Assembly (NCBI GenBank): GCA_029060755.1
Contig: JAIDTI010000001.1
Location: forward strand, 1 to 64,000
From: Ruminococcus sp.
Lineage (GTDB): Bacteria > Bacillota > Clostridia > Oscillospirales > Ruminococcaceae
Length of the DNA: 64,000 nucleotides
Direction of reading: 5' to 3'
Every line of letters begins with the position of its first letter. Position 1 is the first letter of the stretch. The notes beneath the pieces were generated by a model. It worked only from the letters and a program-made list of their open reading frames with translations. It was not told where the DNA came from and searched no databases. The translations under genes and the position numbers were made by a program. Positions 42,543 through 49,112 of the stretch are shown piece after piece.

Positions 42543-45500
42543 TTATTTTACATATTCGCCAAGACCTGCTATTTTCTGATTCTTTACATCATCTGCAACA
42601 AGTCTGGCAACAGCCTTTGCACCAGTCTCACAAAAGTGTGTGCCGTCTGTTGAACCGTCAACAACACCCATAAGATGATATTTGACTGCACTATCATAGC
42701 CGATTGAGTTATAGTGATTTACCATAAGGGTATTGAGGTCAATACATGGTATACTGTATTTTGATGCAAGCTGTTTGCAGGCATCACAATAATTTGTATA
42801 GCTGTTGGTGAATTTGCCGTTTGAATATGCTTTCATGCCGATAACTGTTGTGACAAGAATCGGAGTTGCACCCTTTTCCTTTGCAGATTTAATAAACTCT
42901 GTCATATACCATTCATAAGAACCAGCGGACGGATTATTTACATTTCCGCAAGTCGGGGCGTATCTGTCGGCATTTGATGCACCTGAATCATTTATAGCAA
43001 ACTGCACCATTACATAATCGCCCTGTTTAAGACTGTCTGCTATAGTCTGCCATCTGCCCTCATCATAGAATTTCTTTGTTGAACGTCCTGCAATTGAATG
43101 ATTTGATACTATTACATTGTCTGTAAAGTAGTCGGCAAGATAATATCCCCAGCCCTGTTGTGGTGCATACTGCGCACGGTAGCTCTGTACTGTTGAATCA
43201 CCAGCAATATAGATAGTCGGCTTGTCTGAGCCTGTCGGATTTGCATTGCTGTTCGGGTCATATGTTTCAGCATACGGCTCATCTGTAGGAGTAAGAGTGA
43301 TGTAATCAAGATTCGGACCGCCGTTTTCTGTTGCTGATACAAGTTCTATTGTGTTTTTACCTGCAATAAGCGGTAAAACTATTCCGAACTCTGTCCATGT
43401 TGTCCAACTACCAGTACCTGTAAATGACTGAAGCCAATAATCATTCTTATTGCCGTTTACATAAACTTTCATTTTTCTGTCGGTATCCGTACCATTTGCA
43501 AATCTGATGTGTGTCATGTAGTTTCCTGCTGATGCAACATCTACATCAAATGTAACACTGCTGTCAAGAATATTATCAAAATTGAGATAGCCCACTACTT
43601 CGCTTTTTTCTGTAGGTTCAGTCTTTGTATAGCCCTCGTTTACTGTTTCAGCAACACCACTGCTCCATGACTGGTCAACCGCATAATAGTGAGGGTCTGC
43701 TGTAGTTGTAACTGTAGTAGTTGTTGTTTCTGTAGTTTTCTCTGTTGTAGTTGTCGGAGGAGTATATACAGGAAGTTCCACCATACCTGCTTCGACTTGC
43801 TGAAGGAAAAGTGCGTCCATACCCGTAACGCCGTCACCTGTGTTATACACATCTGCATTGATTTCTCCCTGCGGAGAAAGACCATATTTATCACGATTTC
43901 CTAAAAACTGAACAATTGCTGTAGCATCTGCAATATTTACTGAACCGTCGCAATTTGCATCACCAAGCAGAATATTTACAGCAGGAGTTGTTACAGTAGT
44001 AACTTCTGTTGTAGTTGTAATTTCCTCTGTTGTAGCCTCTGTTGTTGTAGTTGTGGCAATAACTGCCTTTTCGATAAACCAGTCCTGACAGCTTGCGCCG
44101 TTCACTTCCCACTGCTGAATATTTGCACCTGCATCTGTATAGGCATTTTTTACTTCAATTGCAGACATATCATTTGCAACTTTTGTACGGATTTTATAAG
44201 TGCCGTCGAGATTTTTAGTAAACTTGAATTTCTGATTGTCCTGACCGTTCTGCACATAAAGTCCTATATTCTGACCATTAAGTGCCTTGTTTCCTGCAAT
44301 ATCAAGCACAATGTCATCACTTAATGCCGGATAAATATAGTAATAGTCGTCTCCTGCTGATTTGATTTTCCATGTGTTATGCGCCATTGGTTCAGTCATG
44401 CCCCATTGCTGAACGTTTGCACCGCTTTCAACTTTTCCGTCTGCAACTTCCATATAAAGACCACTGTTCACATTTTTGAACGTATACATAACAGTTTCGT
44501 CCATTACTTCTGCTGTGATACCGCTGAAATTGTAAAGCTTTGACATGAGTTCAGCAAGTTTCATTGAACCCATTTTGCTTTGATGCAAGTCATCATTTGA
44601 GCCATTCGCCTGAATTGCGTAATATGATGCCATATCGTCATAACCGACAGATAAGCCGAACTCCTGCCAAGGATTGAACAAATCAACAACAGTAACATTC
44701 TGTTCACTGCCTATTTTATCAAGTTCACCGCCAAACCAACGACCGCTTAACAATGGACTTCTTATAAGGTCACCTCGTCTGCCCTGCTGTTTTACAAGTA
44801 CAACTCTCATGCCTTTTGCTTTTGCTTTTTTAACCATATCTGTAACAGTTTCATAATATTCTGTTGCATTTGAATAGTTTGTGTCATTTATTCCTATTGA
44901 AATAACGTAAATATCACCTGTTTTTCCGTAATATTCAATAGGAACAAACTGTCCGCCGTCAACAAATCCCTTTGCAAACTGTCCGCTTGCCGCCATGTTG
45001 CGTATCTGCCATGATTTGTCAACATATTCACCTAAAAACTGTCCCCAGCCGTGCTGTGAAGTATCAGCTGTATTATAGTAATTTGCAACTGTTGAATCTC
45101 CGCAAAGCCATATTGTAGGACTCATTTTACCTGTGGTATTAAGCTGTGTGATTTCAACAGCAGATATTGAGAACTGCGTGCCTGCTCTGCCTGCAACTGC
45201 CTGAATATTAAGCTGACCGTCTGTAACAGGAATCTGTATTGTTTCAACAGCATTATTTCCTGTAAGGTTTATCATCTGTAGCATACCCTCAATTTTAATG
45301 GAAGTACGGTTGCAGTTTCCCGTGATAATCTTTACTTCATAAAGTCCTTTTGGCAAATCAACATTAAAAGTATTTTCTTTATTTTCAGTCTTGAACTGTA
45401 CAGCGTCATTGCCAGCTCCGTTTCCACCTGCTGTTACATTGGCTACATTTGCAGTCTGCGCAAAACCATAGCCCTTTGAAGCGTTGTAACCGTCCGTTGC

Positions 45501-45671
45501 CGATACTCCTGTATAGCCGTTTGCAGCACCTGCTCCGCCAAAATCAAATTTCCAGTTTACAGCAGCCGCATCAGAAGTCAGCATATTCTGCGGAATGACT
45601 GAACTGAAAGCACCTGCCGAAAAAGCAACAGCAAGAGAAGTGAGACCGCTTAAAAGTTTCTTTGCTTTCAT
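42543..45671 (-). CDS. Secreted dual SGNH/CE12 acetylesterase with CBM13-like, dockerin and CBM35-like modules
   Basis: 1042 residues from the ATG at 45671 (AAAAGGAG upstream). Order: signal peptide (1-35); beta-rich N-terminal domain (about 40-175); SGNH esterase 1 (about 182-395) with 'GDSTVANYY', 'SIGINDTN' and 'DDLHQSKMG'; ricin-like CBM13 with two QQW repeats (about 400-535); Thr-rich linker; dockerin (about 567-630); Thr-rich linker; CBM35-like domain (about 665-800); SGNH esterase 2 (about 820-1040) with 'GDSTVQSY', 'FAINDSG' and 'DGTHF'. Both keep Ser, Asn and Asp-His. Esterase 2 is typical of CE12 rhamnogalacturonan acetylesterases; esterase 1 is more divergent. Likely role: deacetylating pectin on the cellulosome. 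Confidence 0.88.
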   Translation of the reverse strand: MKAKKLLSGLTSLAVAFSAGAFSSVIPQNMLTSDAAAVNWKFDFGGAGAANGYTGVSATDGYNASKGYGFAQTANVANVTAGGNGAGNDAVQFKTENKENTFNVDLPKGLYEVKIITGNCNRTSIKIEGMLQMINLTGNNAVETIQIPVTDGQLNIQAVAGRAGTQFSISAVEITQLNTTGKMSPTIWLCGDSTVANYYNTADTSQHGWGQFLGEYVDKSWQIRNMAASGQFAKGFVDGGQFVPIEYYGKTGDIYVISIGINDTNYSNATEYYETVTDMVKKAKAKGMRVVLVKQQGRRGDLIRSPLLSGRWFGGELDKIGSEQNVTVVDLFNPWQEFGLSVGYDDMASYYAIQANGSNDDLHQSKMGSMKLAELMSKLYNFSGITAEVMDETVMYTFKNVNSGLYMEVADGKVESGANVQQWGMTEPMAHNTWKIKSAGDDYYYIYPALSDDIVLDIAGNKALNGQNIGLYVQNGQDNQKFKFTKNLDGTYKIRTKVANDMSAIEVKNAYTDAGANIQQWEVNGASCQDWFIEKAVIATTTTTEATTEEITTTTEVTTVTTPAVNILLGDANCDGSVNIADATAIVQFLGNRDKYGLSPQGEINADVYNTGDGVTGMDALFLQQVEAGMVELPVYTPPTTTTEKTTETTTTTVTTTADPHYYAVDQSWSSGVAETVNEGYTKTEPTEKSEVVGYLNFDNILDSSVTFDVDVASAGNYMTHIRFANGTDTDRKMKVYVNGNKNDYWLQSFTGTGSWTTWTEFGIVLPLIAGKNTIELVSATENGGPNLDYITLTPTDEPYAETYDPNSNANPTGSDKPTIYIAGDSTVQSYRAQYAPQQGWGYYLADYFTDNVIVSNHSIAGRSTKKFYDEGRWQTIADSLKQGDYVMVQFAINDSGASNADRYAPTCGNVNNPSAGSYEWYMTEFIKSAKEKGATPILVTTVIGMKAYSNGKFTNSYTNYCDACKQLASKYSIPCIDLNTLMVNHYNSIGYDSAVKYHLMGVVDGSTDGTHFCETGAKAVARLVADDVKNQKIAGLGEYVK

Positions 45672-45730
45672 AAATTTCTCCTTTTCCATACAGCTATAAG
45701 CACATAAGCTGTATTATTTTAGCTGTTTTA

Positions 45731-47740: not shown

Positions 47741-48613
47741 TTATTCTGACAAAAGCTTTTCCATATATTCTTCTGTAGAATATAATCCACTTCTGTTATA
47801 TCTTCCTATACCATAGAGGCATTTTGGCTCACGTGTGATATAATTCGGTAGTTCACGGCAGGTAAGTGTCATAAGAAAACCATTTTCATAAATTATCGGT
47901 AGACTCTCACGACTCACTTTTCCAAACGGATATGTGAATACTACAGGCTCAAGGTTCAGATTTTCTTTGAAACTGTCCTGCAAATGCGAAATATCCTCAT
48001 TGAGTTTTTTTCGGTAATCTGTTTCGGATTCGTTTTCAGCCATTCCGCACCCTATACGCTCACCTTTCAGAGAGTGCATATTATATGTATGATTTCCTAA
48101 TTCAACACGTCCCGACTGATATAGTTCTGCAATATCTTCCCATGTCAAATATGAATAATCCGGATTATGAGGGTCTTTCACTGCATTATTATCAGTATAA
48201 GTGCCAACAACAGATACAACTGCTGTCATATCGTATTTTTCAAGCAAAGGCACAAGCACTGACAAATTATTGTAGAAGCCGTCATCAAGAGTAATCATAA
48301 CACACTTTTCAGGCAGATTACCTATGCCTTTTGTATAGTTTATCACCTGCTCCGCTGTAACTGTTGAATATCCGTTGTTTTTCAGCCAGTACAAATCACT
48401 TTCAAGCTGTTGAGGTGTTACGATATAGTCTTTTGGTGTATCTCCACATATACTATGATACATGATAACAGGAAGAAACACGGGTTTTTCCTTATCTTTT
48501 GCAGATGAAAGCAATGTTTTTCCAAGAAAGAAAAATATAAGACAGATTGAAAATATAACTGCATCTGTCATAACTAAACGGATAAATCTTTTCATTGTAT
48601 AACACTTGTACAT
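47741..48613 (-). CDS. Membrane-anchored polysaccharide deacetylase
   Basis: 290 residues. N-terminal membrane anchor (about 12-32), then a NodB-type domain: 'LPVIMYHSI', 'MITLDDGFYNN' (the Asp-Asp pair), 'WEDIAELYQSGRVELGNHTYNMH' region with the metal His pair, and 'FTYPFGK'. It removes acetyl or other N/O groups from glycans outside the cell. Two starts are possible: ATG 48613, with a GGGGGAGAG just upstream that belongs to the neighbouring mobile element, or ATG 48595 (MKRFIRLV), which looks like an ordinary leader but lacks a clear ribosome site. Confidence 0.87.
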   Translation of the reverse strand: MYKCYTMKRFIRLVMTDAVIFSICLIFFFLGKTLLSSAKDKEKPVFLPVIMYHSICGDTPKDYIVTPQQLESDLYWLKNNGYSTVTAEQVINYTKGIGNLPEKCVMITLDDGFYNNLSVLVPLLEKYDMTAVVSVVGTYTDNNAVKDPHNPDYSYLTWEDIAELYQSGRVELGNHTYNMHSLKGERIGCGMAENESETDYRKKLNEDISHLQDSFKENLNLEPVVFTYPFGKVSRESLPIIYENGFLMTLTCRELPNYITREPKCLYGIGRYNRSGLYSTEEYMEKLLSE

Positions 48614-48620
48614 GAACTCT

Positions 48621-48889
48621 CCCCCACCTACGCTCGTTTCACTCGCTAAGAGGTGGGGGCTTCGTAAGAAGATTGGTATTTAAGTTTCCACCTGAAAAAA
48701 TCAGGCAACCCTTATTCTTACAGACGTGTCCACTTCGCCACTACTGGATAGGACTTTAAATCCACACCTCTACTTTAATTTATTATTTTATTTTTCCTGA
48801 CTTCTTTTTTACAGAAGACTAACTGACGCTTAAGATTTTACACACGATACGATTCGATAGTGTAACCGCTTATCTTAACTTATCAGGAT
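48621..48889 (-). ncRNA. Structured RNA resembling HEARO/omega-RNA, driven by its own promoter
   Basis: Read on the minus strand from about 48889. Helices seen: GTCC (48728-48731) with GGAC (48751-48754); GTAAGAA (48664-48670) with TTCTTAC (48715-48721), enclosing a CCTGA/TCAGG hairpin (48691-48705); and the terminal 9-bp CCCCCACCT/AGGTGGGGG hairpin. A structured RNA ending in a C-rich/G-rich hairpin at the right end is the layout of guide RNAs from TnpB/IscB elements. If it works that way, the guide would come from bases below 48613, inside the deacetylase gene. Confidence 0.5.
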
Positions 48890-48895
48890 ATATTA

Positions 48896-48924
48896 ATTAT
48901 ACCAAAAACATGATGATTTGTCAA
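48896..48924 (-). promoter_or_regulatory. Perfect promoter inside the non-coding element
   Basis: Minus strand TTGACA (48924-48919), 17-base spacer, TATAAT (48901-48896). Transcription would run through the structured RNA toward the deacetylase gene. Confidence 0.85.
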
Positions 48925-49112
48925 CACCTTATCGGCATTCATCGCTCACTTCGTTCGCTTAGAAGTGGGGGTATTCTGCTGATAATTGGATAAAAATCAC
49001 CCTTTATAGTATATTCTCTGTTATTCAGCAAAATGCCTGTCCGAAAAAAAGTACTATTTTTTCCTTGATATGAATATATCTGAATAAAAGGTTATAATAA
49101 TGAGGTGAAGTT

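Follow-up and report, generated by a model that had tools for sequence, protein, structure and literature searches.

A transposase-free IS200/IS605-type element of Ruminococcus with a predicted TnpB guide RNA scaffold and a structured leader shared among guide RNAs

The window is the whole stretch of Ruminococcus sp. DNA analyzed here, 64,000 nucleotides of contig JAIDTI010000001.1. A polysaccharide deacetylase gene on the minus strand begins beside a 378-bp element. Read on the minus strand, the element is composed of a left-end hairpin, a promoter, a leader core, an A-rich linker, an omega-RNA-like scaffold, and a right-end hairpin, in that order, and after this last hairpin it terminates in ..GAGTTCAT. 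Elsewhere in the window, at 42543-45689, the ORF list holds a large secreted protein with, by eye, dockerin-like repeats and SGNH-hydrolase-like parts. The locus contains the following features.

47741-48613, minus strand: polysaccharide deacetylase gene (ORF, Pfam PF01522, and empty sites), with a start codon that is split and then restored (..TTCAT/G)
48592-48611, minus strand: predicted guide, the first 20 nt beyond the right end, which coincide with the deacetylase gene start; placed as in TnpB elements (PMC10278001)
48612-48989, minus strand: whole element, 378 bp with no ORF of its own, bounded by empty sites in G109, G095, G006, and G121; its final base, 48612 or 48613, was set by copy-to-copy comparison
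48612-48776, minus strand: putative omega-RNA scaffold, homologous to a tnpB 3' end plus right end (91% identity to G000:C90)
48621-48659, minus strand: right-end hairpin (sequence, folding, and covariation alignment)
48795-48888, minus strand: leader domain, an outer stem UCCUGA/UCAGGA plus an extra hairpin (sequence and folding)
48825-48882, minus strand: 58-nt leader core (model R1), two helices and a conserved internal loop, supported by covariation and by an R1 score of 85.2 bits that is not independent, as this copy belongs to the training set
48896-48924, minus strand: promoter TTGACA-N17-TATAAT
48943-48971, minus strand: left-end hairpin region (sequence and folding), with a hairpin that is longer in sister copies than in the window copy
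48990-48994, minus strand: TTTAT, the target/transposon-adjacent motif (TAM) beside the left end, from the left-end pattern of the class A copies described below

Both end hairpins of the original prediction (48621-48659 and 48947-48967) are present at these places, as is its minus-strand promoter, which agrees with the consensus at 12 of 12 positions (48924-48896). Of 5000 dinucleotide-shuffled versions of the element, 2 contained a perfect promoter site; the whole 64-kb window has five perfect sites of the TTGACA-N17-TATAAT type. No terminator-like site was seen near the element. The predicted element is real, but its extent of 48616-48972 was drawn too short, as empty sites in four genomes place the bounds at 48612-48989.

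In the four relatives compared (G109, G095, G006, and G121), both flanking genes are present and the element is absent. This insertion polymorphism shows that the element has moved. The empty site in all four reads GGGTGATTTTTAT/GTA, i.e., TTTTTAT/GTA, and the insertion point is 3' of TTTTTAT, between the AT and the G of the deacetylase start codon. Insertion behind a fixed short motif without target duplication is as in PATEs (palindrome-associated transposable elements) of the IS200/IS605 family. The ribosome-binding site and the start of the deacetylase gene are now kept apart by the insertion, and the ATG is rebuilt by the element's final base. As the sequence reads, the Shine-Dalgarno position of the deacetylase gene appears to be taken by the G-rich arm of the right-end hairpin. 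The earlier suggestion of a domesticated RNA that controls the deacetylase gains no support, the insertion being absent from the four relatives compared.

Searches of the host genome and its relatives recovered what had been anticipated, namely further copies, tnpB-bearing copies, and empty sites. At E <= 0.001, 30 of the 125 genus genomes, counting the own genome, have DNA matches to the element, some through short end or promoter matches only; in other genomes, the leader alone is matched. The own genome holds three leader-bearing copies, the window copy included. It also holds a tnpB-bearing copy (G000:C90) that has both ends, the scaffold, and the TAM in common with the window element and from which the leader is absent. 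This copy carries an intact 416-aa TnpB frame with the Pfam domains OrfB_IS605 and Cas12f1-like_TNB; its protein had no match among PDB sequences at E <= 0.001, and its catalytic residues were judged by eye. The claim that no nuclease is left is therefore correct for the element itself and incorrect for the genome. Empty sites and copies with the same ends, one of them with the nuclease, bear out the assignment to a transposase-free IS200/IS605-like element. A search for a Y1 transposase (PF01797) gave nothing in the own genome, whose draft is 90% complete, and a match in only one of ten carrier genomes; the enzyme may have been lost after insertion.

A second TnpB-type element of the own genome (G000:C16, L008, ~141.3 kb, minus strand) has a 365-aa frame, a window-like left end, and a different right end. 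Among 72,556 plasmid records, five have a piece that is 60-90% identical to the element, and none spans 80% of it. The scaffold-matching region is annotated as TnpB in three of the five.

The 3' end of the C90 tnpB and its right end are 91% identical to 48776-48612, which marks the scaffold as a TnpB omega-RNA. Judged from this homology, the 3' half of the inner RNA is a TnpB-type guide RNA scaffold. Two properties of a TnpB omega-RNA are found here: the homology to the tnpB 3' end and right end, and a conserved secondary structure. The target of the predicted guide, together with TTTAT, is the empty site as found in the relatives.

The original prediction had also named HEARO as a model for the RNA. 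HEARO (RF02033) is the guide of IscB, and its general layout is that of a transposon guide RNA. No Rfam HEARO match was found at the gathering cut-off, and the covariance search of the window element with HEARO and other Rfam models gave no hit; at E <= 10, 48500-49050 returned only a 13.9-bit snoRNA. HEARO/IscB was rejected on the missing covariance match and on the protein of the gene-bearing copy, which is OrfB_IS605/Cas12f1-like_TNB and not IscB.

Leaders of the window type occur in front of several guide RNAs. This leader, the 5' half of the inner RNA and its most unusual part, was overlooked in the original prediction. There are 42 distinct leader loci, counted after merging leaders that are identical including their 20-nt flanks and excluding two copies of genome G822, and in 38 of the 42 the leader is followed by one of four kinds of guide scaffold. 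Short sequence signatures defined classes A, C, and D and Rfam defined class B, with L112 (truncated) placed in class A and L070 in class D by hand; the leader listing also contains chance matches.

Class A, 13 loci: window-type TnpB omega-RNA
Class B, 5 loci: RAGATH-18, the IS607 TnpB guide
Class C, 10 loci: omega-RNA of a second IS605 TnpB
Class D, 10 loci: the type I-C CRISPR repeat of the host
Leaders without scaffold, 4 loci: L091 and L125 at or near a contig edge; L132, decayed; L075, leader shortened

In L075, the promoter is kept, the leader is shortened, and the scaffold is missing. All five distinct class B types match RAGATH-18 at gathering (67-76 bits vs. a cut-off of 44.9), and in L165 and L167 the class C scaffold coincides in part with the 3' end of a tnpB. 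Apart from RAGATH-18 located 3' of class B leaders, no Rfam family was matched at gathering in leader or scaffold. A RAGATH-25 match in L018 scored 27 bits, under the 49-bit cut-off, and the remaining matches of leader stretches were weak microRNA models, which were set aside. One 2.4-Mb genome (G261) has 33 RAGATH-18 matches, 32 of them above the cut-off. Near a class B solo element, an abiF RNA (RF03085) lies barely over its gathering score (L071:1152-1188 and L090:1745-1781, the same place).

Left ends picked by pattern comprise 23 rows: 15 of class A, 5 of class C, and 3 judged to be chance. TTTAT precedes 15 of the 15 class A left ends so picked (11 solo, 4 with tnpB), and TTCAT is found in 5 of 5 in class C.

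That the RNA is structured, as originally proposed, is confirmed by compensatory changes in leader and scaffold across copies. RNAalifold on 13 class A sequences gives 52 consensus pairs. Both partners have changed in 12 of these, with six such pairs each in leader and scaffold. Folding of the single sequence is weak-to-moderate evidence and makes no choice of strand: z is -2.06 (48600-48990) and -2.39 (48613-48900) on the minus strand and -3.32, a better value, on the plus strand. Comparison of the copies supports a minus-strand RNA.

The R1 covariance model was built from 19 copies covering all four classes. Among 30 distinct gapless leader sequences, paired cells make up 93.6% (shuffles, 84.8%), with a covariation score of 0.293 vs. 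0.135 (0 of 500 shuffles); these shuffles leave relatedness in place. With a copy from another family added, 10 of 14 leader pairs are changed on both sides and the score is 0.318 vs. 0.137, again with 0 of 500 shuffles. Sliding the pairing partner by 1-3 columns lowers leader pairing to 29-46%.

The taxonomic range of the leader is narrow. With strict filters, which weak copies may escape, R1 matched 13 of 125 genomes of the genus, 3 of 396 sampled genomes of the family (the own genome, G122, and one of another genus, so that two of the three belong to the own genus), and 2 of 394 sampled genomes of the order (the own genome and G822, from another family). A pattern scan of species genomes returned 34 leader stretches, all titled Ruminococcus, Oscillospiraceae, or Clostridia, and a scan of viral contigs returned 0. 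The G822 copies are L344 and L345, two solo elements that share one diverged leader. They score 43 bits and have a rewritten upper helix, and the internal loop GGUU / GUAAAAUCUU is kept. By eye, the G822 leader is followed by a class-C-like scaffold that has a TTTCAT site next to it.

Of the 38 classified leaders, 34 are preceded by a promoter-like site that agrees at 10 or more of 12 positions, a count made without shuffle control. The four leaders below this level are L124, L102, L094, and L098, and the upstream sequence of L094 and L098 is cut short. In class A, the promoter ends 12-13 nt before the leader core in 10 of 13 copies. The distance is 36 nt in 5 of 5 class B copies, 33-36 nt in 10 of 10 class D copies, and 50-62 nt in the seven class C copies having a promoter.

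These observations bear on whether the window element is an ordinary decayed PATE or MITE, i.e., a deletion derivative made up of ends, a fossil guide RNA, and a functionless leader that hitch-hikes. Such derivatives exist: a PATE-like element that retains the final 58 nt of tnpB plus the right end is known (PMC7290912), and leaderless deletion derivatives occur among the class A copies. Evidence against decay comes from compensatory changes in both leader and scaffold, from promoter-like sites before 34 of 38 leaders, and from a leader that is joined to four different guide RNAs and reaches another family. We regard this explanation as quite unlikely.

In the copies examined, the leader occupies the place of tnpB. 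Among 24 informative class A scaffold copies, 13 have the leader without tnpB, 4 have tnpB without the leader, none has both, and 7 have neither; 8 of the 32 class A scaffold copies were excluded for having 132 nt or less of upstream sequence. The four leaderless tnpB-type copies carry an open frame of 422-436 codons. Among the seven with neither, L017 and L047 have broken leaders and L051 keeps a tnpB-type promoter. With 7 of 24 copies being solo without an intact leader, the leader is not required for a solo element to exist. The pattern recurs in 14 loci of 44 RAGATH-18 matches, where 4 have the leader, 6 have a TnpB-like frame (Pfam-confirmed for L175 only and judged by eye in the others), 0 have both, and 4 have neither. 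Leader-pattern matches with 3-4 mismatches in L181, L186, and L179 (there a second one) were treated as chance and left out of these numbers.

Class D is confined to G122, the only Cas8c/Csd1-positive genome of 12 tested. Its ten loci are on contigs C6, C19, C20, C24, C42, C43, and C67 (L053-L056, L074, L077, L079, L080, and L096, among the class). A 22-repeat array adjoins the Cas8c/Csd1 gene of G122, and its repeat is GTCGCCCTCTCACAGAGGGCGTGGATTGAAAT with small variants. The leader-borne repeats range from exact to degenerate copies of this array repeat, and each is followed by flanking sequence that differs per copy; one locus has two repeats with a spacer. The promoter-to-leader stretch is 85-91% identical between two class B and two class D copies, so class D probably arose from class B through scaffold exchange.

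By eye, the class D flanks include methyltransferase, portal, terminase, and MuB-like ATPase genes and stretches upstream of nadA-like and nadB-like genes; several copies border phage-type genes. At L080 (G122:C19) and L072/L096 (G122:C20), repeats lie upstream of nadB-like and nadA-like genes, which could hint at a regulatory use. The PAM of type I-C systems is TTC. This triplet is found beside the homologous site in 56 of 71 relatives of the phage methyltransferase and in 0 of 79 relatives of the portal gene; in the methyltransferase it is the codon of a conserved residue, so its presence is perhaps a coincidence. No true target of the class D guides was found, and the best relatives shown differ at 8 or more of 36 bases.

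Class D also raises the idea of a decoy RNA, in which leader and scaffold form a defective guide that titrates TnpB or Cascade in the manner of RNA anti-CRISPRs (Racrs), which work through solitary CRISPR repeats. A single mechanism would then cover all four classes. Class D resembles a promoter-driven solitary repeat unit of the host subtype, and several of its copies lie next to phage-type genes. According to PMC10651486, solitary repeats in prophages of CRISPR-bearing hosts match the host subtype in 83% of cases. Against a decoy, class A and C elements keep right ends and left-end motifs that would aim a guide at the empty site, and one class D locus has two repeats with a spacer. A decoy also gives no reason for the mobility of the solo element. 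We consider titration unlikely.

The leader could instead act as an RNA in its own right, either as a small 5'-trimming ribozyme or as regulatory or toxic cargo maintained by the attached guide. It is small and structured, with invariant unpaired bases, and RAGATH RNAs include known ribozymes (PMC11061315). CreTA (PMC9458426 and PMC10097628) provides a precedent for a CRISPR-like guide coupled to a toxic RNA. However, Rfam 15 gave no match, ribozymes included, in the leader stretches searched. The guides, on inspection, are derived from the flanks and differ per copy, and as such could hardly all repress the promoter of the leader as in CreTA, so the toxin version is rated low. An acting leader is, as a whole, quite unlikely in our estimation.

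The explanation we favor, and hold to be probable, is that the window element is an IS200/IS605-type transposon, now non-autonomous, that has been pared down to a guide RNA gene, that its solo RNA is used by TnpB in trans, and that the leader is a portable 5' module. Insertion polymorphism, architecture, family, conserved structure, and the common leader are observed; transcription, service by TnpB in trans, and the task of the leader are deduced. The strong sigma-70 promoter would drive one RNA made up of the structured 5' leader, the TnpB omega-RNA scaffold, and a guide from the flanking target DNA. TnpB made elsewhere, e.g., from the intact gene at G000:C90, is expected to bind this scaffold in trans, and TnpB with the solo RNA is expected to cut TTTAT plus guide, which is the empty site. 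Cutting of empty sites would let the solo element be retained and spread like a tnpB-bearing one. According to a preprint (PMC11870625), TnpB with an insertion-site guide helps an IS200/IS605 element to persist and spread in plasmids; the solo element would receive this help in trans.

The leader would then be a portable 5' RNA module that replaces tnpB. In cis systems, TnpB excises the omega-RNA from its own mRNA (PMC10278001). A solo RNA has no such mRNA, which points to the leader as a 5' module for guides that are made alone. Solo guides for a second IS605 TnpB and, in the form of RAGATH-18, for an IS607 TnpB start with the same leader, as do ectopic repeats that would serve type I-C Cascade. 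As it stands on guides for three kinds of TnpB and for Cascade, specificity for a single nuclease is unlikely. Its most likely role would be to let a guide transcript be produced and maintained on its own, no matter which nuclease reads it, be it by shielding the 5' end, by processing, or by docking a general factor.

A more far-reaching version is tentative, and we put it at slightly below an even chance. Here, transposons with unrelated TnpB families and ectopic CRISPR repeats would each have become joined to the leader, which would be a universal 5' module of guide-only mobile elements that borrow the TnpB or Cascade of the cell, either for their own retention or to attack competing DNA, and a common factor that recognizes the leader would link transposon retention to CRISPR guides.

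If solo guides are served in trans, TnpB is a shared good exploited by non-autonomous elements, and cleavage of empty sites is predicted even though the element encodes no nuclease. As far as our searches reach, a leader shared by three kinds of TnpB guide and a CRISPR repeat is undescribed. No description of a shared structured leader on solo guide RNAs appeared in the literature searched, which left most subscription papers outside and is weak evidence of novelty. Such a leader would offer a handle on a general step in the making or stability of guide RNAs and on the movement of guides between transposons and CRISPR systems.

Several parts of this picture have known counterparts. The window RNA differs from HEARO in having no covariance match and in having tnpB as its cognate gene. 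It resembles the TnpB omega-RNA (reRNA) of IS200/IS605 OMEGA systems, in which the scaffold overlaps the tnpB 3' end and right end, the guide lies past the right end, and the motif lies at the left end. For solo-tnpB elements of Sulfolobus islandicus, too, TTTAT has been proposed as the TAM (PMC10640517). In contrast to these systems, the window element has no tnpB in cis and has its own promoter and 5' leader.

With PATEs, the element shares the form of a short, ends-only derivative with subterminal hairpins common to a gene-bearing copy. PATEs are often mobilized in trans, and in Halanaerobium one of them contains the 3' end of tnpB together with the right end (PMC7290912). Unlike a PATE, the window element reads as an RNA gene with a promoter and a conserved leader, and it is found in multiple copies across species.

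The class B solo elements carry RAGATH-18 (RF03064), which guides IS607 TnpB. Of all RAGATH-18 RNAs, 64% (10,258 of 16,029) adjoin IS607 TnpB, leaving 36% elsewhere (PMC11061315), and no leader is mentioned in the passages on them; in our leader-bearing loci, no TnpB-like frame is directly upstream in 4 of 4.

Precedents in print exist for small IS605 derivatives that keep a tnpB tail and the right end (PMC7290912), for RAGATH-18 RNAs that do not adjoin a TnpB (PMC11061315), and for promoter-driven solitary CRISPR repeats (PMC10651486). Class D resembles the last of these, the Racr or solitary repeat unit, in being a promoter-driven repeat of the host type that is found several times near phage-type genes. 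By analogy it may have an inhibitory role, and it differs from a Racr in that its leader is common to transposon guide RNAs.
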